Notes under the pieces: model-generated | Told to the model about the DNA's origin: nothing | What the model saw: the letters and a program-made list of their open reading frames with translations, nothing else | The model's database searches: none | Shown here: piece by piece, positions 1-26,472 of the stretch | Layout: every line of letters starts with the position of its first letter | Numbering within the stretch: position 1 is the stretch's first letter | Translations under genes and position numbers: made by a program | Assembly (NCBI GenBank): GCA_012518815.1 | Contig: JAAYRK010000038.1 | Coordinates: 1 to 33,004, forward strand | From: Candidatus Epulonipiscium sp. | Lineage (GTDB): Bacteria > Bacillota > Clostridia > Lachnospirales > Defluviitaleaceae | Direction of reading: 5' to 3' | DNA: 33,004 nucleotides

Positions 1-250
1 GAAAATGTAGTTTTGAGCAAGTCGTTGGTAAACGGCTTAGTTATTATGCATTTTTACCTGTGAGTGGATAGTATTGACTTCTGTAGATAGCTTTTGATAA
101 CTATACTTTGCTGTAGATTCTGTTGCCTAAGGGACTACTATACTCTTTTTGGTCTAAAGCCATGGGCAATAGAAGATATAGTTTTTTTGGTATGGTTAAG
201 ACCTGCAAGGATACTATCCTCTCCGGTAAATTTAGGAGGGGTTTTTTATT
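1..250 (+). promoter_or_regulatory. Attenuator-type leader of an ABC-F gene
   Basis: The region before the ABC-F start holds several competing RNA structures. A tiny ORF (ATG at 46, stop at 61-63, peptide MHFYL) lies near the 5' end, without a convincing ribosome binding site. A first terminator-like hairpin pairs 137-147 with 173-182 and runs into seven T (182-188). A second pairs CCTCTCC (218-224) with GGAGGGG (235-241) and runs into six T (242-247); it also buries the ribosome binding site. GGATAGTAT (66-74) is a perfect complement of ATACTATCC (211-219), a long-range helix that would compete with the second hairpin. Leaders with a short uORF and an attenuator are known for antibiotic-induced ABC-F genes; that this one responds to ribosome-targeting drugs is inference. 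Confidence 0.6.
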
Positions 251-652
251 TTGTTAGTAGAATGTAGAAATCTAAAAAAATCATATGGAGATCGCCTTAT
301 TTTAAATATTGAAAATCTTTGCATATACGATCAAGATCGTATTGGTATTGTAGGAGTAAATGGGGCAGGGAAAACAACTTTATTGAATCTTTTAAGCCAA
401 AAAATAGAACCTGATGAAGGATGGGTAAAACTTTATGGGAAATGTTCCTTCATCTCCCAACTAGAGCCCCCTGAGGAAGAAACAATTCGACAAGAAATGG
501 CTTCAAAATTTAAAGTTTCCCACACCTATTTGGAGAGTATGAGCGGAGGAGAAAAAACCCGCTTTAAGCTGGCGGCCAGCCTTAGTCAAAATAATGCAAT
601 TATTTTTGCTGATGAACCTACTTTGACTCTAGTACCCCCAGTATTTCAATAA
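251..652 (+). pseudogene. Truncated ABC-F ribosome-protection ATPase (N-terminal piece)
   Basis: Only 133 codons remain of a family whose members are usually about 480-650 residues with two ABC domains. The first ABC domain is recognisable: Walker A GVNGAGKTT (about residues 35-43), signature SGGEKTR (about 98-104) and Walker B IIFADEPT (about 117-124). Homology stops right after ADEPT, where the D-loop, the interdomain linker and the whole second ABC domain should follow; the last residues (TLTLVPPVFQ) are out-of-frame sequence from the neighbouring fragment. The start is TTG with GGAGG at 235-239. ABC-F proteins displace macrolide, lincosamide, streptogramin or pleuromutilin drugs from the ribosome. 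This copy lacks what is needed for that, so it is a remnant, unless the join is an assembly artefact. Confidence 0.85.
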
Positions 653-1365: not shown

Positions 1366-2353
1366 GTCTTAGTGGTTTAAGAAGTTTTTCAGGACCATTT
1401 GATTGGATTGTTTCAGATTTTCAATCTGTTCTTAAAATGATAGAATCAGATTTTGATGATTTTATGAATAAAGACAATATCTTTGAACTTCCGTTTGATC
1501 CGAACAAGACTAGACGATTTATTGATGAAAAATATGGTTTTCTATTCCTCATGAAATAAAAGAAAACTTAGAAGATGAATGGGATATGATTAAAGATAAA
1601 TATTGCAAGAGAGTAAAAAGATTTATTGAAAAATCAAAAAAGCGAATATGTTATTTAAGAGCTGTGAAAAATAATGAAGAAATTTTGTATATAGAAAACA
1701 ATCAGGAATATATAAATTCTGTAATTAAAAAACATAATCCTAATAGTACAATTATATATTTGCTTCTTAATGGAATGCATTTTGATAGCAGTTTTAAAGG
1801 TAATTACTATTACCTTAATATTGACTGCTATAGGAACGATTATTTTGGTATGCTTTATATGTTTAGGAATTCAATGCAATTATTGGGTAGATGTAAGACT
1901 CTTTTATCTGATGAAGTTTTTGCAAATAATATTGAATATAGAAATAAAGTATTTAATGATACGGGTAAAACATTTAAAATATTGCTGCATGAGATTGAAA
2001 ATGGGTCAAAAATAGGAATAAAGATTCTAGAAAAATGTCTGGATTTGTATGATGGACTTTATATTTGGGGTGCCGCAAAACTTGGTTTGATTATTACCAA
2101 GTATATGAAAGATAACAATATAAACATCTTAGGCATAATAGATAGTAAAGAAGAATTACGTGGGACTAAAGTAGAAGGAATAGAAGTAATTTCTTTTGAC
2201 GATGTAATAGATAACAAAAGTATTTTTATTACTGTATTAAATTCTAAAGCTGTTAATGAAATATCTAATATGATTAAAACGAGTAGAAAAAATCTTAAAT
2301 TTGCAACGTTCGAAGATTTAAATGCTGATTTGTTTATGTTTTTGTTAGAATAA
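1347..2353 (+). pseudogene. Frameshifted DUF1796 (putative papain-like peptidase) protein with C-terminal Rossmann-like domain
   Basis: Two overlapping frames give one DUF1796-like product. The first (about 1347-1541) carries the family hallmark SGPFDWIVSDF and reads to EKYGF. The second continues with SIPHEIKENLEDEWDMIK into KRVKRFIEKSKKRICYLRA and on to 2353. One missing T in the run at 1538-1541 explains the break. The start of the domain is lost in the join to the surface-protein fragment; no in-frame start with a ribosome binding site is visible. After the DUF1796 part, residues LYIWGAAKLGLIITKYM, GIIDSKEELRG and FITVLNSKAV resemble a Rossmann-like nucleotide-binding fold seen in polysaccharide enzymes. 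Function is unknown; DUF1796 genes often sit in surface-glycan loci. A sequencing error in the T run is possible. Confidence 0.7.
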
Positions 2354-2550
2354 AAGATAGATTAAAACCAAAGGAAATATTTAGAATTTAAGTGTTTTAT
2401 AGAGTGATTATATTAAAGTATGCAAAATAGGATTATATAGATCGTTTGATAATTATATAAGTAATTACCCGCTAAGTCATACAATAATTAATGAAGGTGC
2501 ATAATAACATAACAGGTATAGCTTATTAATTAATTTGGAGGATTAAAATA

Positions 2551-2859
2551 ATGGAAAATCATCTAGTAGACTTTGATAAAATAGCATGGGTTGAATCAGC
2601 AATTGGGATAAGGCATAAAAGTTTTAAAAAGGATGGAAAAACAATAAAGTTGATTGAATTAAGTGATACGTACTGTTATAAAGATTGGTGCACACGTGGT
2701 CATATATCATATATATTAGAAGGTAAATTTACAGTTAAATTTGAAAATCATACAGAAATATTTAATACAGGAGATATTGTTTTTATTCCAAGTGGTAAAA
2801 AACATATTGCTATGGTGGAAAAAGGAAATCGACTAAAGATGATTTCTTTTGATATTTAG
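2551..2859 (+). CDS. Small cupin-domain protein
   Basis: This 102-residue protein is a single cupin barrel. The ATG is preceded by GGAGG at 2537-2541. The cupin core is visible: CTRGHISYILEGKFTVKFE forms motif 1 and FNTGDIVFIPSGKKHIAM forms motif 2. In motif 1 one His (H51) is present but the usual HxH pair is only partly kept; in motif 2 the His of PSGKKH is present. Metal binding is therefore plausible but weakened. It stands alone with no operon partner, so its substrate cannot be inferred. Stand-alone cupins of this size act as sugar or small-ligand binding proteins, isomerases or sensors. Confidence 0.75.
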   Translation: MENHLVDFDKIAWVESAIGIRHKSFKKDGKTIKLIELSDTYCYKDWCTRGHISYILEGKFTVKFENHTEIFNTGDIVFIPSGKKHIAMVEKGNRLKMISFDI

Positions 2860-2913
2860 ATAGTTTCGTTATTATCAGTCAAATTCTCCTTAAGGCATTG
2901 ATTAAGAAATATT

Positions 2914-2940
2914 GGACTATAGTAGTCTCTTTCTTTTTTT
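2914..2940 (+). terminator. Weak terminator after the cupin gene
   Basis: GACTA (2915-2919) and TAGTC (2923-2927) form a short stem, extended by one G-T pair, followed by a T-rich run (2928-2940). The stem is short, so efficiency is uncertain. Confidence 0.4.
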
Positions 2941-3013
2941 TGAAGTATATGCTAAGATTGCATTATAAAATAAACATATTAAGTTATTCTATCAATAATC
3001 TAAATACTAATAA

Positions 3014-3038
3014 CACGTCTTTAATGACGTGATTTTTT
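3014..3038 (+). terminator. Intrinsic terminator
   Basis: CACGTC (3014-3019) pairs perfectly with GACGTG (3026-3031) across a six-base loop, and six T follow (3033-3038). The T run on one side only points to plus-strand transcription. It lies 155 bases past the cupin stop, so it may end either that transcript or a lost neighbour. Confidence 0.65.
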
Positions 3039-3198
3039 CTACTAAAAAACGGAACTGAAAGAATGTACTGAACAACTATCCTAATACTGTAGACATAGAA
3101 TGTCTCAGCAAGAAAAAACCAGCAATTGCTCGTTTTGTGTCCTGTAATATTTGATGATATGATAGTATCTTATTTTTTGAAAGGAGGCTGTAAAACAT

Positions 3199-3705
3199 TT
3201 GGATTTAATAAAAACGGGTGCTTTTATTAAAAAGCTTAGAAATGAAAAGAAACTAACTCAGGAGCAATTTGCAGAACAGTTTGGTGTATCTAGAAGAACT
3301 GTTTCACGATGGGAAACAGGAACTAATATGCCTGATCTTGATATTTTGGTAGAGATGTCAGACTACTTCAATGTAGATCTTCGTGAACTGTTGGATGGAG
3401 AAAGGAGAAGTGAAAAAATGAATGAAGAATTAAAAGATACTGTATTGAAGGTAGCTGATTATAGCAATAGTGAAAAAGAGAAGATAACAAAATTTATGCG
3501 TATGTTATTTATTGCTGGAATAATAGCAAGTATAATCAATGCAATATTGAGTCGTAGTGAACTTCCTGAGACATTCTGGGTCGGTTTTGCAGAAGGTGCA
3601 TCTTTTGGATTAATATTAATCGTAATGGTTTATGGTTTATTATACACAAGCGGATATCTTTTAAAGCTAGCAGCTGCGAAAAAGCGTATTACTGGCAAAC
3701 AATAA
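3199..3705 (+). CDS. XRE-family regulator with two C-terminal membrane helices
   Basis: The 168-residue product has an N-terminal helix-turn-helix of the HTH_3/XRE class (about residues 7-62: IKKLRNEKKLTQEQFAEQFG, then VSRRTVSRWETG and MPDLDILVEMSDYFNVDL). A polar linker follows, then two hydrophobic segments (about 103-120 and 130-155) and a basic tail. This layout suggests a DNA-binding protein tethered to the membrane that responds to an envelope signal. The start is TTG 3199, because no ATG precedes the HTH in frame and AAAGGAGG lies at 3179-3186. No target gene is adjacent in the same direction; the next gene is convergent. Function beyond transcription control is not known. Confidence 0.85.
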   Translation: MDLIKTGAFIKKLRNEKKLTQEQFAEQFGVSRRTVSRWETGTNMPDLDILVEMSDYFNVDLRELLDGERRSEKMNEELKDTVLKVADYSNSEKEKITKFMRMLFIAGIIASIINAILSRSELPETFWVGFAEGASFGLILIVMVYGLLYTSGYLLKLAAAKKRITGKQ

Positions 3706-3716
3706 ATTTTAGAAAT

Positions 3717-3768
3717 AGGGGACGATTTTTTGCTTCCTCGCAAAATTAGAAGCAAAAAGTCGTCCCCT
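3717..3768. repeat. REP-type palindrome, divergent copy
   Basis: AGGGGACGATTTTTTGCTTC (3717-3736) and its near-exact complement (3749-3768, 19 of 20 paired) form a stem between two convergent genes. A T-rich stretch follows, so it probably acts as a terminator. It is the most diverged member of the GGGACGGTTCTT...GCTTC family in this window. Confidence 0.8.
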
Positions 3769-3950
3769 AGATTTTTAGGTCTAAATATAAATAATTTGTA
3801 AGCCGATATAATAAATATCTTATTTTACAATGTTTAACATTAAATTACATTTTGTACAGTAATTATTAAGAAATTATACTGCAAACATATCACTTAATAA
3901 TTAAAATTCTTAAAACACATAATAAAATAATTATCCATCCTCAAAACACA

Positions 3951-4604
3951 TCATGAAATATTACGCAAATGCATATAAACAGTGTTCTTAGAAATTCCCA
4001 TATATGATGCTACCTTAACAACAGCATCTTTTAGATTGAAGATACCTTTTTCGCTTAATAAGCTAATTATTTCTTTATTTTTATTAGAAACAGGTATGTT
4101 AGGATTTGACAGTACCTTTGACTTTGCTTCTTCTAATGCAGATATAATTAATTCATCCACATTATCTGAGAAAGTTTCAGCAACATTTAAATTAGAATCA
4201 TTAGGTATGAATTTAGCAAGTACTTCTGATAAAGGGAGATTTGTATAGAAGTTTATGCAGAGCATACCAATAATTCTATCATATTCTCCGATTATTGGAA
4301 TAGTAGTAGATTTCATCATGGTGCCATTCTTATCCCTATTAAAATAGCTTATAGATTTTTTATCATTATTTTTTTTCAGTGTTTCAAGCATAGATAGAGC
4401 AAAATCTGTAATTGGGGCCCCTTCGCTTCTGCCTGAATAGTGTCCATTTACAATTTTAATGACAGATTTATCTAAGTCTTCAAGACTATGTAGTATTATC
4501 TCATAACCGCTACCAAGATAGTCAGCAAGACCATCTACCAATGTCTTATATGAATTTAGTATTAAGTTCTCTTTTTCTGTGAGAACAATATGATAATGAT
4601 CCAC
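3951..4604 (-). CDS. YheO/DauR-type PAS-HTH transcription regulator
   Basis: This is a DNA-binding regulator with the layout of YheO and DauR. Its N-terminal PAS-like sensor (about residues 10-120) contains YEIILHSLEDLDKSVIKIVN and ends in IIGMLCINFYTNLP. A C-terminal HTH_22-type domain (about 155-217) contains LSEKGIFNLKDAVVKVA and ISKNTVYMHLRNI. GTG 4604 is chosen over GTG 4613 because GGGAGG ends immediately before 4613 and is well spaced for 4604. The gene diverges from the ridA-nhaC-PLP-lyase operon, so it most likely controls it. DauR in Pseudomonas represses D-arginine catabolism; by analogy this protein may sense an amino acid or its imine/keto product. The ligand is inference. Confidence 0.85.
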   Translation of the reverse strand: MDHYHIVLTEKENLILNSYKTLVDGLADYLGSGYEIILHSLEDLDKSVIKIVNGHYSGRSEGAPITDFALSMLETLKKNNDKKSISYFNRDKNGTMMKSTTIPIIGEYDRIIGMLCINFYTNLPLSEVLAKFIPNDSNLNVAETFSDNVDELIISALEEAKSKVLSNPNIPVSNKNKEIISLLSEKGIFNLKDAVVKVASYMGISKNTVYMHLRNIS

Positions 4605-8473: not shown

Positions 8474-8706
8474 TTGATAATAATTTTCAAATGAATTAAA
8501 ATGTATTTATTGATAAATGACAAATTAATTCAATCAATTTGTTAATAACAGTCAGACGGTTTTAGCGAGGGCGTCATGAGTCTACCGTCTTTGTTAAAGC
8601 CATAGCAAAAGAAATTTTGCTAGCTTGCTGGTGTTTGTTAAAGCCATAGCCAAAGTAATTAGCGTAGCTACTGATATTAAAAATAATCAGTTTATACAAT
8701 AAATTA
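8474..8706 (+). promoter_or_regulatory. Promoter and structured leader of the flavodiiron gene
   Basis: TTGATA (8474-8479), 17 bases and TAAAAT (8497-8502) predict a start near 8509, giving a leader of about 210 bases. The leader holds an inverted pair AGACGGT (8554-8560) with ACCGTCT (8584-8590), then an imperfect tandem duplication of about 44 bases whose copies both begin with TTTGTTAAAGCCATAGC (8590-8606 and 8634-8650). Copy 1 contains the hairpin TAGCAAAA (8603-8610) with TTTTGCTA (8615-8622). No known riboswitch consensus was recognised. The two repeats could be binding sites for a regulator or paired RNA stems. Confidence 0.5.
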
Positions 8707-8720
8707 AAGGAGGATAAACT

Positions 8721-9929
8721 ATGAAGAAATTAAAAATAGCAGATGGAATACATATGCTTACTATGAATGTTGAGGATATTTTATTTGAGGGAATTTGGGA
8801 GCTTGCTAATGGTGTAACTCTTAATTCCTATATAGTTCAGGGAGAAAAGACTGCAATAATTGACGGTGTAATTGGTTGGGATGGGATCCCAGAAACCCTT
8901 TACAAAAGCTTAGAAGAAATAGATGTTAATCCTCAAGATATTGATTATTTGATTGTTAATCATATGGAACCAGATCATTCTGGTTGGATTTCAAACTTTA
9001 GAAAAATTAAGGATGATTTTAAGATAATATGTACTGATAAAGCTGCAAAGATGGTATCTTCCTTTTATGGTGAAGATAAGATAAGGATTGTAAAGGAAGG
9101 AGATACTTTAGAACTTGGAAAGGGTAAAGTATTGAGTTTTCACCCAGTAGCAAACGTTCACTGGCCAGACACCATGTACACTTATGAAAAGGATACAAAA
9201 ACTCTTTTCTCATGTGATATGTTTGGAGCCTTTGGTAGGATGGGAGACCATTGTTTTGACGATGAGCTTACTTCTGAAGAAATAGAGTTCTTTGAACTTG
9301 AAGGATTAAGATATTATTCTAATGTAATGGCAACTTTTACAACTAGTTTAAAAAAGGCAATTGAGAAAGCAAAAACACTAGAAATCAATACAATAGCACC
9401 TGGTCATGGTCCGGTTTATAGAAAGAATCCTCAAAAAATCATAGATGATTATTCTAGGTATGCTCTTTATGCTGAAGGGGCAGGTAAAAATGAAGTTACG
9501 ATATTGTGGGGTTCTATGTATGGTATGACAGCAAAGGCTGTTGACTTTGTTGAAAGCATACTTCAAAGAGAGGGTATTAAGTACAACAAGTTGGAAATGC
9601 CTTTAGAAAGTGAAAGTGAAATGGTGGCAGCTGTTTTTAGGTCTGCAGGGATAATAATTGCAGCACCTACATATGAGTACAAGCTTTTCCCACCTGTTGC
9701 AGCAGCCCTAAGTGAGCTTGGCAGAAAAAAGATTACAGGCAAGACAGCATTTAGACTCGGCTCTTATGGATGGTCCGGAGGTGCGGAAAAAGAACTAAGT
9801 GAAATAATAGAAAGAAATAGGATGAACTGGGACTTCATTGAATCCGTAGAGTTTGAAGGAGCACCAAAGGAAGAAGACTTTAAAAAGATTGAAGCTAGAG
9901 TATTAGAACTTATAGAAAAGATGAAGTGA
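8721..9929 (+). CDS. Flavodiiron protein (A-type flavoprotein), O2 and/or NO reductase
   Basis: The 402-residue product has the class A flavodiiron layout: an N-terminal metallo-beta-lactamase-like diiron domain (about 1-250) and a C-terminal flavodoxin domain (about 255-400). Diiron ligands are visible in NHMEPDHSG (H81, E83, D85, H86), later in ANVHWPDTM and SCDMFGAFG, and in APGHGPV. The FMN loop is WGSMYGMTAKA. No rubredoxin extension is present. These cytosolic enzymes reduce O2 to water or NO to N2O with electrons from reduced rubredoxin or F420; in anaerobic clostridia O2 reduction protects the cell. The NADH:rubredoxin-reductase-like gene at 17153 could complete the chain. GGAGG lies just before the ATG. 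Its TGA stop (9927-9929) overlaps the left REP arm. Confidence 0.95.
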   Translation: MKKLKIADGIHMLTMNVEDILFEGIWELANGVTLNSYIVQGEKTAIIDGVIGWDGIPETLYKSLEEIDVNPQDIDYLIVNHMEPDHSGWISNFRKIKDDFKIICTDKAAKMVSSFYGEDKIRIVKEGDTLELGKGKVLSFHPVANVHWPDTMYTYEKDTKTLFSCDMFGAFGRMGDHCFDDELTSEEIEFFELEGLRYYSNVMATFTTSLKKAIEKAKTLEINTIAPGHGPVYRKNPQKIIDDYSRYALYAEGAGKNEVTILWGSMYGMTAKAVDFVESILQREGIKYNKLEMPLESESEMVAAVFRSAGIIIAAPTYEYKLFPPVAAALSELGRKKITGKTAFRLGSYGWSGGAEKELSEIIERNRMNWDFIESVEFEGAPKEEDFKKIEARVLELIEKMK

Positions 9930-9957
9930 AGCAGGGGGACGGTTCTCCTGCTTCAAT
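9928..9957 (+). repeat. REP arm left of ade
   Basis: This single arm (core GGGGGACGGTTCTCCTGCTTC) begins inside the flavodiiron stop codon. It is the inverted partner, 29 of 30 bases, of the arm at 11724-11753, with the ade gene between them. In other copies in this window the two arms are separated by only 2-4 bases. Confidence 0.9.
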
Positions 9958-10001
9958 CTTTTGAAACACCATGTAAAAAGTTAAAAAGAAGGAGCCATAA
10001 T

Positions 10002-11801
10002 ATGGAAAAACAGTTCTTGAAAAAAAGAATCGATGCAGCAGCTGGAAGAATACCAGCAGATATGGTTATTAAAAATTGCAAAATCATTGATGTCTATAAT
10101 TCTTCTATTATAGAAGGGCAAAGTATTGCTATCACAGATGGTTATATTGTAGGAATTGGTGATTATAAAGGCAAGCATACGATTGACGCAAAAGGTTGCT
10201 ATGCTGCACCAGGATTTATTGATGGTCATATCCATATTGAATCTTCTTATGTTACGCCGGAGGAAATTGGAAGGCTTTTGGTTCCCCATGGCACTACAAC
10301 TATTATTGCCGATCCTCACGAAATTGTGAACATATGTGGTCTAAGGGGCTTAAATTATATGCTTGATGCTGCAAGGGGAACAAAACTCGATATTCGTTAT
10401 ATGCTTCCATCTTGTGTGCCAGCAACACCTTTTGAAAATGCCGGAGCAGTATTGGATGCAGAAAGGCTCAAAGAACCTCTTAAGGATGAGCGTATTCTTG
10501 GTTTGGGTGAATTTATGAATTACACAGGAGTTGTAGAGGCAGATGATGATGTCTTAGATAAGTTGCTGCTTGCCATAAATGAAGGAAAAATCATTGACGG
10601 TCATAGTCCAGCTTTAGTAGGGAATCCCTTAAATGCTTATGTAGCATGTGGAATCCGTACAGATCACGAATGTTCTACAGAAGAAGAAATGCTTGATCGT
10701 ATTTCCCGAGGTATGTATATTCTTCTAAGAGAAGGTTCAGCCTGTCATGATCTTCGTACATTGTTGAAGGCTGTTACACCAGATAACAGTCGTCGCTGCT
10801 TGCTGTGTTCTGATGACCGGCAGCCTGAAACAATTTTTAGCTTGGGCCATCTAGACAATCATCTTCGTATTTGTGTAGAAGAAGGTATTTCTCCCATTAT
10901 CGCAATTCAAATGGCTAGCCTAAACGCAGCGGAATGTTACGGGCTGCTTGACAGGGGTGCTATAGCACCAGGACTTCGTGCAGATATTGTTTTGCTGGAT
11001 AATTTACATGACTTTAAAGTGAATCAGGTATTTATTAAAGGAGAGGAAGTTGCTAGGGAAGGCAAATACCTGCCACAAATACAGCGGAGTGATATTTCGT
11101 CAGTACAAGGACGTTTTAATGTAAAAAACTTTTCTATTAATAAATTAAAATTAAAGAGCCGTTTAAAGAATGTCCATGTTATTGATCTTCTTCCAGGTGG
11201 TGTTGTGACAGCAAAAGGTACAGCAGAAATTGTTCTTAATGAAGAAGGGGAGTTTATGTGGCAGCCAGGACAGGATATTGCAAAAATAGCAGTTGTAGAA
11301 CGACACCGTGGAACAGGAAATATTGGTTTAGCTTTGCTTCGAGGATATGGAATCAAATCTGGTGCTGTGGCTTTGTCCATCGCTCATGACTCTCATAACA
11401 TTATTACTGTTGGAACTAATGACGAAGATATGGCGTTGGCAGTAGAAGAACTTGTAAAGCAAGGTGGAGGGATTATCCTTATAAAAAATGGAGAAATCAT
11501 CAATTCTATGCCGATGGTTGTCGGGGGAATTATGAGTGACCAATCGGGTGAATGGGTAAGTGAAAAGCTGGCACAAATTCATAAAGATGCATATGAGGAA
11601 CTTGGAATTAATAAGGAGGTAGAACCAGTAATGACATTATGCTTTATGTCATTGGCAGTGATACCTGAAATCAAGCTTACGGACAAAGGACTTTTTGATG
11701 TTACGCAAAATGCTTTTATTTCTATTGAAGCAGAAGAACCGTCCCCCTGCTTCGCTAAAGGTGGTGTAAAGTTTGGAACTATTAAAAGAAACTATAAGTA
11801 A
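10002..11801 (+). CDS. ade: Adenine deaminase, with a read-through C-terminus
   Basis: Adenine deaminase converts adenine to hypoxanthine and ammonia in purine salvage. The 599-residue product has the amidohydrolase metal site GFIDGHIHIESS (about 71-82; H76, H78, E80), ADPHEI, GLGEFMNYTGVV, DGHSPAL, RTDHE and LCSDDRQPE, and the C-terminal adenine-deaminase domain ending near LTDKGLFDV. Family members normally end a few residues after that point. Here about 23 extra residues (from about EEPSPCF to the end) are encoded by the right REP arm and by the first bases of cobT. By hand count, GC is 28/60 at 10741-10800 and again at 10801-10860, against 16/60 in a flavodiiron line (9001-9060) and 19/60 in a cobT line (12061-12120). 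The gene therefore looks acquired. The ribosome binding site is AAGGAG; no own promoter was seen. Confidence 0.95.
   Translation: MEKQFLKKRIDAAAGRIPADMVIKNCKIIDVYNSSIIEGQSIAITDGYIVGIGDYKGKHTIDAKGCYAAPGFIDGHIHIESSYVTPEEIGRLLVPHGTTTIIADPHEIVNICGLRGLNYMLDAARGTKLDIRYMLPSCVPATPFENAGAVLDAERLKEPLKDERILGLGEFMNYTGVVEADDDVLDKLLLAINEGKIIDGHSPALVGNPLNAYVACGIRTDHECSTEEEMLDRISRGMYILLREGSACHDLRTLLKAVTPDNSRRCLLCSDDRQPETIFSLGHLDNHLRICVEEGISPIIAIQMASLNAAECYGLLDRGAIAPGLRADIVLLDNLHDFKVNQVFIKGEEVAREGKYLPQIQRSDISSVQGRFNVKNFSINKLKLKSRLKNVHVIDLLPGGVVTAKGTAEIVLNEEGEFMWQPGQDIAKIAVVERHRGTGNIGLALLRGYGIKSGAVALSIAHDSHNIITVGTNDEDMALAVEELVKQGGGIILIKNGEIINSMPMVVGGIMSDQSGEWVSEKLAQIHKDAYEELGINKEVEPVMTLCFMSLAVIPEIKLTDKGLFDVTQNAFISIEAEEPSPCFAKGGVKFGTIKRNYK
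11724..11753 (-). repeat. REP arm right of ade, inside its coding end
   Basis: ATTGAAGCAGAAGAACCGTC and the following bases to 11753 are the reverse complement, except for one base, of the arm at 9928-9957. The arm is translated as part of ade (about residues 575-584), and the cobT ribosome binding site follows directly. Confidence 0.9.
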
Positions 11802-12858
11802 AATCACTAAGCCTGATGAAAAAGCTAAAGAAGAGGCTATTAAAAAGTGGGATGGGCTACTTAAACCCATTGGTAGTTTAGGAGCATTAGAAGAGATTAC
11901 AATAAAGATATCAGCCATGACAGGTAAAGTGATTAATAAATTTGATAAAAAAGCAGTCGTTGTAATGTGTAGTGATAATGGAGCAGTTGAAGAGGGTATT
12001 AGTGCGGCACCACAAGTTTTTACAAAAATTTTAGCACAAAGTATGTCAAAAGGACTAACTGGAGTTGCGACATTAGGTAAATTTACGAATACAGATATTA
12101 TTACAGTTAATTTGGGGATAAAAGGTCATATTGATGATCCTCACATACTTGATATGAAGCTTGCAGATGGAACTAATAACTTTACAAAAGGACCTGCTAT
12201 GACCTATGAGGAAGCAGTTAAAAGTATTGAAAAAGGTATTGAAGTTGCAGATCAATTATATTCTAAAGGATATGATATACTAGGAACTGGTGAAGTAGGA
12301 ATTGGAAATACTTCTACTGCAGTTGCGGTGGTATCAAGCATATTAGGATTAGATGTCGATATTATTTGTGGTAAAGGAGCAGGCCTTACAGACGAGCAAT
12401 ATGCTCATAAAAAAGAAATTATAAAAAAGGCAATATCTATCAATAAAGTAAATACAGATGATCCTATAGAAGTTATATCAAAGCTTGGAGGTTTTGATAT
12501 AGCTGGCATGTGTGGTTTATGTTTATCTGCAGCTAAGAATAAAAAACCTATTGTCATCGATGGTTTTATTTCTTCGGCAGCAGCACTATGTGCAAGTTAC
12601 CTAAATCCCCATGTAAAGGAATATATTATTCCATCTCATTTATCTGCGGAGCCTGGTGCAGGGTATGTATTAGATGAACTAGGATTAAAACCATTATTAA
12701 CTTTAGAAATGAGATTAGGAGAAGGCTCTGGTTGTCCTTTAGCATTCCAAATAATTGAAGCAGCAGAATATCTTTTAGAGAACATGGGAACTTTTGATGA
12801 TGTTTCGATGCAATCCTCATGTCTGATAGATATAAGAAATGATAGGGAGTGTAAATGA
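11773..12858 (+). CDS. cobT: Nicotinate-nucleotide:dimethylbenzimidazole phosphoribosyltransferase
   Basis: CobT transfers phosphoribose from nicotinate mononucleotide to a lower-ligand base such as dimethylbenzimidazole, giving alpha-ribazole phosphate for cobalamin. The 361-residue product has the family features KPIGSLGALEEI, VVMCSDNGAVEEGISAAP, GTGEVGIGNTSTAVAV, GGFDIAGMCGLCLSAA and the C-terminal RLGEGSGCPLAFQIIEAA with the catalytic Glu. The TTG start at 11773 follows AAAGGTGG (11757-11764) and lies inside the 3' end of ade, overlapping it by 29 bases. It opens a tight cobT-cobU-cobS-cobC cassette. No cobalamin riboswitch was found upstream; the gene probably depends on read-through from ade or further upstream. 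Confidence 0.95.
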   Translation: MELLKETISKITKPDEKAKEEAIKKWDGLLKPIGSLGALEEITIKISAMTGKVINKFDKKAVVVMCSDNGAVEEGISAAPQVFTKILAQSMSKGLTGVATLGKFTNTDIITVNLGIKGHIDDPHILDMKLADGTNNFTKGPAMTYEEAVKSIEKGIEVADQLYSKGYDILGTGEVGIGNTSTAVAVVSSILGLDVDIICGKGAGLTDEQYAHKKEIIKKAISINKVNTDDPIEVISKLGGFDIAGMCGLCLSAAKNKKPIVIDGFISSAAALCASYLNPHVKEYIIPSHLSAEPGAGYVLDELGLKPLLTLEMRLGEGSGCPLAFQIIEAAEYLLENMGTFDDVSMQSSCLIDIRNDRECK

Positions 12859-15187: not shown

Positions 15188-15197
15188 AGCACGGCGA

Positions 15198-15263
15198 AGC
15201 ACGGGGACGGTTCTTCTGCTTCATTCTTCAAAAAGAATGAAGCAGAAGAACCGTCCCTGTGCT
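15198..15263. repeat. REP-type hairpin, also a probable terminator
   Basis: Two 31-base arms (15198-15228 and 15233-15263) pair with one mismatch around a CAAA loop. The core is GGGACGGTTCTTCTGCTTC and its complement. Five T follow the right arm, so on the plus strand it should end transcription of the EamA gene. A partial duplication, AGCACGGCGAAGCACGG, lies at its left edge. Confidence 0.92.
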
Positions 15264-15364
15264 TTTTCCCTGTTTTTTGTCTTGAAATATCCCCCCTAGT
15301 TAAAATATAATAAAAATTGTAACTTTATGACCTTTTTTTACTTATGTGAATTAAATAACAACAG

Positions 15365-15526: not shown

Positions 15527-16783
15527 ATGAAAAAAGTAAGAAATGTTTTGGTATTTGCACTTATTGTAGTTTTTACATTTGCTCAGCTACCAATGTCAGC
15601 AATGGCAAAAGATGTGGGAATATCTCAATTAGACGATGAAGATTTTGTTGCTCAGGTCAAAGAGATTACTGCTTTTGCCGAATTAGCTGAGGAAGTTCGC
15701 TGGCAGAATACAAACACACCTCAATTTCCCGATACTCTAGAGAGTACTGTAGAGGGAGAAGTAGTCCAAATTCCAGTGACTTGGGAAACTGATAAGGCTT
15801 ATGACGCCAATGAGCCTGAAGAAGGTTCATATGTCTTTACGGCTGTTGTGAGTGAAGATTATAAAGTAGCCGAGGGTGTAGTAGTTCCGTGTATCACTGT
15901 AGTTATTTCAAAATCAGATGTAATGAGTGATGATACGCAAGAGAGTTCACAAGCAAGTTTAGAAGATAAGAAAGAAGAAAACATAGAAAATATAGAAGAA
16001 GATATAGAAGATAAGAAAGAAGACAATATAGAAAAGGATATAGAAAAGGATATAGAAGATAGTAACTTAGAAATTAATAATATATCTTTACAAAGCAGTG
16101 ATGCTTATTTTATAGGAGAGGGAGTAGAAACGAATCCCTATCTTATCCAAAGTGCTGAAGATCTTGCCAACCTAGCGGAGTTAGTAAATCAAGACGATGA
16201 ACATTATCGTAGTGCATATTATGAATTAACAAATGATATTGATCTTTCAGCTTATAGCAGTGGTGAAGGTTGGACGTATAATAGGAGAAAACTCTTCCAC
16301 GCGTGGATTTAACGCTGGCAACATTGCTTTAGAAGAAATGAAGGTTAATGGCAGCCTTGTTTCTAGTGGTAATCATGATGATGAAAATGGTAAAGGAGTA
16401 AGCTTAGACCAGGTTTATGACAAAAATTTCTGGGAGAGCTTAAAATGGAGTGGCGAATGGATTTTTGAAGACAATATGGCATTGTCAATGGCACAGGCAA
16501 CAATCAGTTTAGCCCTTATGCAGCAATTACAAGAGAACAAATGGCAGTGATGATGCAAAACTATGCAAAAGTTTTAGGCCATACTATACCAGCTTCTAAT
16601 CAGTATCCTTCATTTACAGACGAGAATAAAATCGGTCCATGGGCAAAAGATGCAGTAAAAGGGATTGCCCAAGCTGGTATAATGATAGGTAAAACAGGTG
16701 GAAATTTCGATCCGAAAGCTAACGTTACAAAAGCAGAATCAGCTGCTATTCTAAGGAGATTTGTGGAACTTGTTGTTGACTAG
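15527..16783 (+). pseudogene. Decayed SLH/GLUG cell-surface protein
   Basis: The frame opens with a clear signal peptide (MKKVRNVLVFALIVV... to SAMAKD), then an Ig-like module (WQNTNTPQFPDTLESTV to VISKSD), an acidic repeat rich in EDIEDKKEDNIEK, and the start of a GLUG region (GTNPYLIQ-type, here ETNPYLIQSAEDLANLAELV). At about 16272-16278 the frame shifts: GEGWT should run into IIGENSSTRGF. A second join (about 16310) leads straight to GNIALEEMKVNGSLVSSG, so the GLUG body is missing. A third, near 16475, passes from WIFEDN in one frame to YGIVNGTGNNQFSPYAAITR in another, entering SLH modules that end at 16783. SLH domains anchor proteins to cell-wall polymer. Three lesions point to a pseudogene or to collapsed repeats in the assembly. 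Confidence 0.85.
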
Positions 16784-18379: not shown

Positions 18380-18400
18380 AGGCAAGGTAAATTAGGGGGA

Positions 18401-18534
18401 AACAGGGGACGGTTTTTGTGAAGCAAGGGGACGTTTTTTGAAGCAGAGGGACGGTTCTTGTGCTTCATTCTTTTTGAAGAATGAAGCACAAGAACCGTCC
18501 CTCTGCTTCAAAAGAACCGTCCCTCTGCTTCACT
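18401..18534. repeat. Cluster of REP-type repeats with a perfect 33-bp hairpin
   Basis: Two plus-direction partial arms (about 18401-18424 and 18420-18440) precede a full palindrome with 33-base arms (18440-18472 and 18477-18509) pairing without a mismatch around TTTG. One more minus-direction arm follows (about 18510-18534). The cluster fills the gap between two convergent genes and comes within five bases of the nspC stop, so it likely terminates both. Confidence 0.93.
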
Positions 18535-24947: not shown

Positions 24948-25064
24948 TACCTTTCTAATCGATTATAAAAATACTAAGAACTAGGATATGTCTTAAGCAA
25001 GAAGATTATTACATATTTTATTTATAAATGCAATATAATTTTTTGAATTGTGAGAGAAGTAAAA

Positions 25065-25124
25065 CAGGGGGACGGTTCTTTGCTTCATTCTTTTTAAAGA
25101 ATGAAGCAAAGAACCGTCCCCCTG
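25065..25124. repeat. REP-type hairpin
   Basis: Arms 25065-25093 and 25096-25124 are perfect complements (core GGGGGACGGTTCTTTGCTTC). It lies upstream of speD and downstream of the hemerythrin gene, both on the minus strand, and so could end the hemerythrin transcript. From 24948 to 25064 no certain promoter was identified, though the AT-rich stretch near 25010-25040 is a candidate for the polyamine operon. Confidence 0.92.
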
Positions 25125-25171
25125 CTTCAAAGCACTGTCTTTTTGTTTCAGACCTTACTTTTCACTATTAA

Positions 25172-25573
25172 TTAAAGAGTTTTCACATAATCTCCAATTT
25201 TCTTATCCATGGTTTTTATATGATTAGTAAGCCAGTTAATAACCATTTTATTAGCATTAATTATTACTAAAATATTGCCGCCGCCTTCATTATAATCACT
25301 TTTTAGTTTTGCAAGATCACTAATGAATTTTGCATGGGCTTTCTTTTGGGCATCAAGTTCGGGGTATCCGATTTTTGTCATGTAAGCTTCTTCATCTCTA
25401 AAATGTAGTTTTGTATATTCATCTAAGAAGTCAATCATTTGATTGATATATTCTTTTGCTCTTTGTTGTTTTCCAGCTTCAAATAGTTCATTAGCTTTTT
25501 CAAACCATATTTTGTGCTGCTCATCAATATTTTCAACACCAACAGATAAATCAGGAGTCCACTTTATTGCCAT
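25172..25573 (-). CDS. Bacteriohemerythrin, one iron-binding His replaced
   Basis: This 133-residue four-helix-bundle protein binds O2 at a non-heme diiron site. Expected ligands are seen at H20 (NIDEQHKIWF), H57 and E61 (KLHFRDEEAYM), H80 (KKAHAKF), and H118 and D123 (NHIKTMD). In the HxxxH motif of helix 3 the first His is Gln (Q76 in AQKKAH), so one of the usual five histidines is absent; similar AQK variants occur in some homologues, as far as is recalled. Possible roles are O2 storage, delivery to the flavodiiron enzyme, or sensing. It has its own GGAGG-like ribosome binding site and no operon partner; a REP hairpin follows. Confidence 0.9.
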   Translation of the reverse strand: MAIKWTPDLSVGVENIDEQHKIWFEKANELFEAGKQQRAKEYINQMIDFLDEYTKLHFRDEEAYMTKIGYPELDAQKKAHAKFISDLAKLKSDYNEGGGNILVIINANKMVINWLTNHIKTMDKKIGDYVKTL

Positions 25574-25686
25574 ATAAATCCACCCCTCATAATTATTTTA
25601 ATTATATTGTATAGTTTTTTTAGAATAAATTCAATAGATTTAAAAAATAATGACACATTATGTCGATATTATATGATAGAAGTATT

Positions 25687-25713
25687 GAAGCAAAAGAACC
25701 GTCCCCGTGCTTC
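25687..25713 (-). repeat. Single REP arm
   Basis: GAAGCAAAAGAACCGTCCCC to 25713 is one unpaired arm in the same orientation as the arm at the end of ade. No partner arm was seen within the following 100 bases. It lies between the divergent hemerythrin and XRE-DUF5680 genes. Confidence 0.85.
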
Positions 25714-25728
25714 CCTGTATAACAAAGG

Positions 25729-25773
25729 TAGCAAAATTGCAACCATTAAGTTATGTTTACAACAATTTTGCTA
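25729..25773. promoter_or_regulatory. Inverted repeat, possible autoregulatory operator
   Basis: TAGCAAAATTG (25729-25739) and CAATTTTGCTA (25763-25773) are perfect 11-base inverted repeats separated by 23 bases. They end 15 bases before the ribosome binding site of the XRE regulator gene. A dimeric regulator could bind here, or the pair could form a leader hairpin. Confidence 0.45.
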
Positions 25774-25800
25774 TTGTATTATTATCTTGAGGTGATGAAA

Positions 25801-26472
25801 ATGATTTTTTGTGAAAAACTACAATTACTAAGGAAAAACAAAGGGCTTACACAAGAGGAAATGGCTGAAAGGCTTGATGTATCGAGACAGGCAGTTGCTA
25901 AATGGGAGTCAGGGCAGGTTTATCCGGATATTTCAAATTTAATTCAAATTAGTGATTTATTTAATGTGTCTATTGATTATCTTGTTAGAGATCAGGAGTG
26001 CATGCTAAATATTTCATCTAATAACAAAACAGATCTGGATAAACTGATTGATTTTAGGCTCGAAGCAAATATAAACACATATGCAGCATTTAAGAATGAG
26101 ACAAGTTCAACAAGGCTTGATTCTCACGACTTTAGGTACACAAAAGGACCTTTTACATATCATGATACATATGTTGGCGGAGAAAAATTTGCAGGTCAAG
26201 AGGCGATTTGGGAAGATGGAAAAGCTGTTTATGCAATGAATTATGTAGGACGGGTTTTGGCAGAACAATTTAGTGGAAATTTCTTAAAAGAGGCTCTTAG
26301 AAAGGCAGATAAAAACATGCCTTATAGAGGACCAGAATATTATCAGTCTGGAGAATACTTATATAAGAGCAAAGTTGTAGGTGATTTTACATGGTTTCAA
26401 GGCTATGAAGAAATTTATTGTAATGGCATAAAGGTATATGAGTGCTATTTTCACGGAGGCTTGATTCAGTAA
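25801..26472 (+). CDS. XRE-family regulator with DUF5680 domain
   Basis: The 223-residue product starts with an XRE helix-turn-helix (about 5-60: LRKNKGLTQEEMAERLD, VSRQAVAKWESGQVYPD, LIQISDLFNVSIDYLV). A C-terminal domain follows with the DUF5680 pattern: FRLEANINTYAAF, SRLDSHDFRYTKGPFTY-type text (here TRLDSHDFRY), YVGGEKFAGQEAIWEDGKAV, YRGPEYYQSGEYLYK and FQGYEEIYCNG. DUF5680 probably binds a ligand, unidentified. ATG 25801 is chosen since GAGGTG (25789-25794) is well spaced for it; the ATG at 25795 is too close. The inverted repeat at 25729-25773 may be its operator. A terminator follows. Confidence 0.9.
   Translation: MIFCEKLQLLRKNKGLTQEEMAERLDVSRQAVAKWESGQVYPDISNLIQISDLFNVSIDYLVRDQECMLNISSNNKTDLDKLIDFRLEANINTYAAFKNETSSTRLDSHDFRYTKGPFTYHDTYVGGEKFAGQEAIWEDGKAVYAMNYVGRVLAEQFSGNFLKEALRKADKNMPYRGPEYYQSGEYLYKSKVVGDFTWFQGYEEIYCNGIKVYECYFHGGLIQ

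Follow-up and report, generated by a model that had tools for sequence, protein, structure and literature searches.

Introduction

REP units and their doublets, the REPINs, are the small repeats that accompany RAYT transposases in bacterial genomes. The TnpA-REP protein is able to cut and to join single-stranded REPs (PMC8266576), and REPs form preferentially near the rayt gene (PMC2817692). REPs have also been reported at points of recombination and at the edges of transferred segments: in the O157 antigen cluster of Escherichia coli (PMC3158064), at strain-specific loops and at the phage lambda bio junctions (PMC1525189), and at recombination points in Pseudomonas SBW25 (PMC11708052).

The window described here (the whole stretch of DNA analysed, 33,004 nucleotides) is the entire contig C101 of a draft genome of 2.19 Mb in 117 contigs, estimated as 92% complete. 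Within it an adenine deaminase gene, ade, lies between two inverted REP units, an arrangement that an earlier note on the same DNA had read as a gene captured in the loop of a REP hairpin, perhaps by a RAYT-type transposase. Our comparisons with related genomes, chiefly a congener (G001), make ade appear to have arrived at a seam in gene order that is marked by REPs.

The REP/REPIN Family

The REP unit of this genome is about 27 bases long (GAAGCAnnGGGACGGTTCTnnTGCTTC) and folds alone into a 12-bp hairpin. Exact GGGACGGTTCT cores number 28 in the 2.19 Mb genome, as against 0 for a reversed control pattern; 10 of the 28 are in this 33 kb contig, so the match between the two arms beside ade reflects membership in a family and not chance, and a further 8 are on contig C83. 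The family thus consists of a short imperfect palindrome in many dispersed copies. Lone units are frequent, and inverted doublets with a short spacer occur three times in the window and also on contigs C39, C50, and C83. The spacers of the intact REPINs in the window are 4, 4, and 2 bases long, as the earlier note had said of copies elsewhere in the window. The REP loci of the window other than those at ade are as follows.

15196–15264, unstranded: intact REPIN behind the cob cluster (repeat search, nhmmer, fold)
18399–18531, unstranded: REP cluster that includes an intact REPIN (18440–18509); a seam, at which G001 carries an additional ferredoxin/flavodoxin gene
25062–25128, unstranded: intact REPIN, adjoining the hemerythrin gene at its 3' end; a REP singlet at the G001 counterpart
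25687–25713, minus strand: REP singlet between the hemerythrin and XRE regulator genes, the order of which is swapped in G001

Two further repeats of the window may be recorded here: a decayed REP-like copy at 3719–3770 (GGGGACGATTTTTTGCTTC), directly behind an XRE-type gene (3199–3705), and, at 15945–16076, about eight 12-base repeats (ATAGAAGAAGAT-like) within the coding sequence of a secreted, surface-type protein.

In the copies listed, a GTAG-like foot at the hairpin base is absent from the unit ends. REP classes without the GTAG consensus are known (PMC6006769), so the missing foot alone does not exclude the REP/REPIN family. The CGTC-tagged REP superfamily (PMC3733652) was considered and rejected, its tag being unpaired and at the element end, whereas the CGTC string here is inside the hairpin.

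Y1 transposases matching the PF01797 profile are present in 28 of 54 relatives, the congener not among them. In one genome of the same family (G003), a RAYT (NF047646, 86.1 bits against a cut-off of 80) is situated between REPs with the same core as ours, which shows that the repeats belong to the RAYT kind. The arms at ade are units of a REP/REPIN family of the type that accompanies RAYT transposases. REPs also lie near a Y1 transposase gene in G041 and G032, where most same-core REPs fall within tens of kilobases of that gene (G041 contig C11:50–86 kb; G032 contig C1:4.19–4.23 Mb), as described for Thauera. In another genome (G010, contig C42, at approximately 3782–4512 of the stretch read), two REP cores in inverted order, 0.7 kb from each other, flank a small ferritin-like gene.

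The ends of C101 and C83 share 9 bases, and both match adjoining DNA of contig C34 of G006 at approximately 90–92% identity. The two contigs are probably neighbours in the chromosome, so that the REPs seem to form one local island across them. The matching DNA itself (window 1–652 and C83 1–135) comprises a truncated ABC-F-like gene and its upstream region; its 90–92% identity to C34 is unusually high for another genus, and the match ends beside a REP.

The ade Locus

The features of the locus, in order along the window, are listed below.

8721–9929, plus strand: gene of an fprA-type flavodiiron protein of 402 aa, having lost the final 5 codons present in four relatives; G001 homology stops at 9926
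9928–9954, plus strand: left arm, a REP unit (nhmmer E 3.4e-9) forming a complete 12-bp hairpin (fold), loop side toward ade
9955–9964, plus strand: REPIN-spacer-like remnant, AATCTTTTGA, compared by direct reading with ATTCTTTTTGA in the REPIN at 18440
10002–11801, plus strand: ade, adenine deaminase, 599 aa (TIGR01178, 631 bits against a cut-off of 472.5, residues 20–574); codons 578–599 from the REP and its flank
11725–11732, plus strand: right join, with bases common to both partners; ATTGAAGC belongs to native ade in two relatives as well as forming the REP inner end at this locus (alignment of ade 3' ends)
11727–11753, minus strand: right arm, a REP unit (nhmmer E 4.8e-10), loop side toward ade; read through in the ade frame (translation)
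11773–12858, plus strand: cobT, first gene of a cobTUSC cluster that extends to 14682 (TIGR03160, 387 bits against a cut-off of 319.3); start overlaps the extended end of ade

Compared directly, 9928–9957 and the reverse complement of 11724–11753 agree at 29 of 30 bases, exactly as the earlier note had counted; a repeat search pairs 9925–9957 with 11724–11756 at 94% identity. The note had also placed the start of the left arm within the upstream stop codon, read the right arm as translated at the end of ade, and put cobT just beyond it, and all three readings hold: the TGA of fprA (9927–9929) overlaps the left arm, the ade frame runs through the right one, and the TTG start of cobT is at 11773, 19 bases past the arm. 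The contrast in base composition (approximately 47% GC for ade against 27% and 32% for its neighbours) had been overstated, the measured values being 39.4% (ade), 35.9% (fprA), and 34.2% (cobT). As to the loop of a single hairpin, ade is indeed flanked by inverted units, but each arm is a complete 12-bp hairpin in itself, so the gene is better described as flanked by two REP units than as lying in one hairpin loop. The two arms differ at 1 of 27 positions, a distance to be set beside the 0–2 differences within intact REPINs and beside REP pairs of unrelated origin, 16% of which are equally close; the arms may, but need not, be the halves of a single REPIN.

On the left side, the fprA orthologues of G001, G004, G006, and G007 are 407 aa long and end in KMKxK(V/I)VE; here the protein ends at KMK and the stop overlaps the REP. 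The congener has a lone REP directly 3' of its fprA stop, in the same orientation, followed by an ArsC-like gene (so named by eye) and others, neither ade nor cobT being among them. Thus ade is not required for fprA to have a REP beside it. Common descent of this copy in the two species appears likely but is not proven, and its exact boundary beside fprA differs between them. At the left join no clear sequence is held in common. Upstream of fprA, two 39-base direct repeats that are 82% alike lie 44 bases apart (8587–8669; GTNTTTGTTAAAGCCATAGC..).

On the right side, ade continues from ATTGAAGCA into the arm, with the loss of its stop codon, the gain of 22 residues (EEPSPCFAKGGVKFGTIKRNYK), and an overlap with the start of cobT. 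By the TIGR01178 equivalog test the protein is an adenine deaminase, the REP-derived tail falling outside the model. The join is on 6–8 bases common to ade and the REP. In three relatives, ade stops where the right arm starts in this genome or one codon later: the congener's copy (89% aa and 84% DNA identity), on a different small contig and among different neighbours, ends ..ISIEA-stop, and two further copies (87% and 85% aa), also in other neighbourhoods, end ..IPIEA and ..IPIEAL. No exact REP core occurs in these ade-relative loci, and the one REP-like unit seen there is upstream of ade in G001. Homology with G001 falls into blocks, one of which stops at 9926 while another covers 9975–11738. 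Each join of ade is on the inner side of the adjacent arm, which is its loop side.

Genomes of the same family outside the genus have versions of ade only 40–42% identical to this one, whereas those of two metagenome-assembled genomes named Clostridiaceae bacterium (a label that may not be their true relationship) are 85–87% identical, which suggests that ade entered the genus by horizontal transfer. Its identity to the G001 copy (84% DNA) is like that of other genes, so the differing places of ade within the genus could reflect one relocation and not two acquisitions. The captured-gene reading is in this respect half sustained: ade appears to be an arrival here, its nearest relatives (85–89% aa) all being in other neighbourhoods and its joins being on the loop sides, but capture by a RAYT does not follow. 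A precursor in which fprA and cobT are separated by a plain REPIN, for which the earlier note had proposed looking in close relatives, did not turn up at any of the cobT, fprA, and ade loci compared. In none of them are fprA and cobT adjacent, and cobT has no match in G001.

REPs and Gene-Order Seams

Comparison of gene neighbours on C101 and C83 with those of G001, the one other genome of the genus in the comparison, gave 12 seams, at which the neighbours differ, and 12 conserved junctions. A REP is present in 7 of the 12 seams and in 0 of the 12 conserved junctions (Fisher two-sided p = 0.0046), a local and not genome-wide count, scored by hand over approximately 45 kb chosen for carrying REPs. 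Because of this choice of stretch and manner of scoring, because the conserved junctions are mostly inside operons, and because some seams share events, we regard the association as suggestive only; REPs may only mark tolerated sites.

The strongest single case for a REP-bounded exchange is a cassette on C83 that encodes a GntR regulator, an ABC ATPase, and a permease. Its genes are individually 90–94% identical to those of G001, as compared with 73–86% for 13 other orthologous genes. The cassette (approximately 2 kb, 92% identical overall) occupies 1421–3423 of the C83 stretch and C22:17633–19634 in G001, and in both genomes the match runs from REP to REP, with differing DNA beyond. In the window itself, the hemerythrin and XRE regulator genes (25172–26472) are in swapped order relative to contig C36 of G001, with REPs at the joins; the 3' side of the hemerythrin gene has a REP in both genomes.

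The arms at fprA, at the hemerythrin gene, and at either end of the GntR cassette all turn their outer side to the conserved gene, and it is on their loop side that the genomes differ. An XRE case and an ABC-F case appear similar by eye but depend on degenerate REP copies. This is the pattern to be expected if REPINs break at their centre, and the position of ade on the loop sides of both arms is as such a model predicts. The ridA gene of G001 is a counter-example, homology there beginning on the outer side of a REP. That gene (contig C50, stretch 2474–3113) has a REP unit on either side, and its upstream similarity to the window sets in just past the REP; the ridA gene of the window is without REPs.

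Origin of the ade Arrangement

We propose that the locus is a REP-marked seam in a mosaic region, with ade joined between the units on their loop sides, an explanation for which we judge the chances to be evenly balanced. Regardless of ade, fprA would have had a REP unit at its 3' end and cobT a unit of opposite orientation before it; ade, which in its relatives lies in unrelated neighbourhoods, would have been joined between the two on their inner sides. Use of the 6–8 common bases at the right join would have removed the ade stop codon and added the 22 residues. Probably a REPIN broke in or close to its middle, or dispersed REPs recombined with one another, after which short homologies served to join the site to DNA that was incoming or had been relocated. 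Hairpin nucleases such as SbcCD are known to cleave long palindromes. In this account the joins themselves, the loss of the ade stop, the REP behind the congener's fprA in the absence of ade, and the varying places of ade are established from the sequence comparisons. We infer the break at a REPIN centre, the short-homology repair, and a possible origin of both arms from a single REPIN; for the repair, the common bases at one join are suggestive support and not proof.

A rather unlikely alternative is that ade arrived by ordinary means and that REP singlets were inserted independently at the 3' ends of fprA and ade, the inverted order being coincidental. REPs are commonly located no more than 20 bp from 3' ends and are able to provide stop codons (PMC3733652), lone units abound in this genome, and the congener's fprA has its REP with no ade behind it. 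Nor is inverted order commoner than the others: in a hand list, drawn from listings that for some genomes cover part of the copies, neighbouring REPs 0.3–6 kb apart are arranged +- 5 times, -+ 7, -- 8, and ++ 3. However, the right arm starts on bases common to ade and the REP, and the spacer-like remnant on the left arm faces ade; both fit joining at a REPIN better than insertion of bare units. Nearby seams and the transferred cassette also end at REPs, a further point in favour of the seam explanation.

It is highly improbable, in our estimation, that a RAYT captured ade in the loop of one REPIN, making arms and gene a mobile passenger unit. The arms are inverted and nearly identical, and the RAYT of G003, flanked by same-core REPs, shows that an arms-gene-arms layout exists for a transposase gene. 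Yet the search of the genome for a RAYT that the earlier note had advised, made with the PF01797 profile, found no Y1 transposase, and hence no cognate RAYT, in this genome (92% complete) or the congener (85% complete). Flanking by inverted arms, for which the earlier note had also proposed looking, is not enriched, neighbouring REPs showing no excess of +/- order, and the GntR cassette has the opposite order (-/+), so such a unit would not be general. The relatives of ade elsewhere lack the arm pair, ade together with both arms was not found at other sites, and there is no sign that the gene moves with them.

Misjoining of contigs through REP copies during metagenome assembly is also very doubtful: although both this genome and the congener are drafts (117 and about 130 contigs) and some contigs (C33, C64) end near REPs, the partners at the ade/REP and fprA/REP joins have so few bases in common that an assembler could not have joined them on that basis, only a switch inside the 27-base unit could mislead and both units are variants unseen at the other REP loci read here, and the raised identity of the GntR cassette is independent of the joins.

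Beyond the locus, REPIN centres in these Clostridia might be recurrent break-and-join points, with REP halves bordering exchangeable cassettes (single genes or short cassettes, within and between species), loosely like an integron without an integrase; we consider this generalization improbable. If it were true, common small repeats would gain a concrete role in gene-order change and single-gene transfer, and breaks should be on the loop side of the arms and not the outer side, a prediction applicable to any REP-rich set of genomes. If REPs merely mark tolerated places, the locus still shows a REP junction that extends a protein by fusion with the 3' end of its gene.

Comparison with Known Systems

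The repeats resemble the described REP/REPIN and RAYT (TnpA-REP) systems in having short units that form hairpins, doublets of inverted units separated by a short spacer, many and mostly intergenic copies, and, within the same family, a RAYT gene flanked by same-core units. They differ in that no RAYT was found in this genome, the GTAG foot is absent, and a metabolic gene, not a transposase, lies between the inverted units. At the REP recombination points of E. coli and Pseudomonas, as here, changes in gene content or sequence identity coincide with REPs; the present cases are in Clostridia, involve single genes or short cassettes, and have joins apparently on the loop side. IS481, IS1397, and ISPpu9 split REPINs and so, like ade, place foreign DNA between the parts of a REP doublet (PMC11708052, PMC1525189), but ade is an ordinary gene that has neither its own transposase nor terminal repeats. 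REPs situated within genes or at gene ends furnish final coding sequence or stop codons (PMC3733652), and the right arm likewise contributes to the end of ade, but here the join did away with the native stop codon and lengthened the protein by 22 residues. REP-associated recombination is already known, and this locus is a new and unusually clear example of it in Clostridia, not a new kind of element; what it adds to the known cases is the suggestion that breaks occur on the loop side of the arms.
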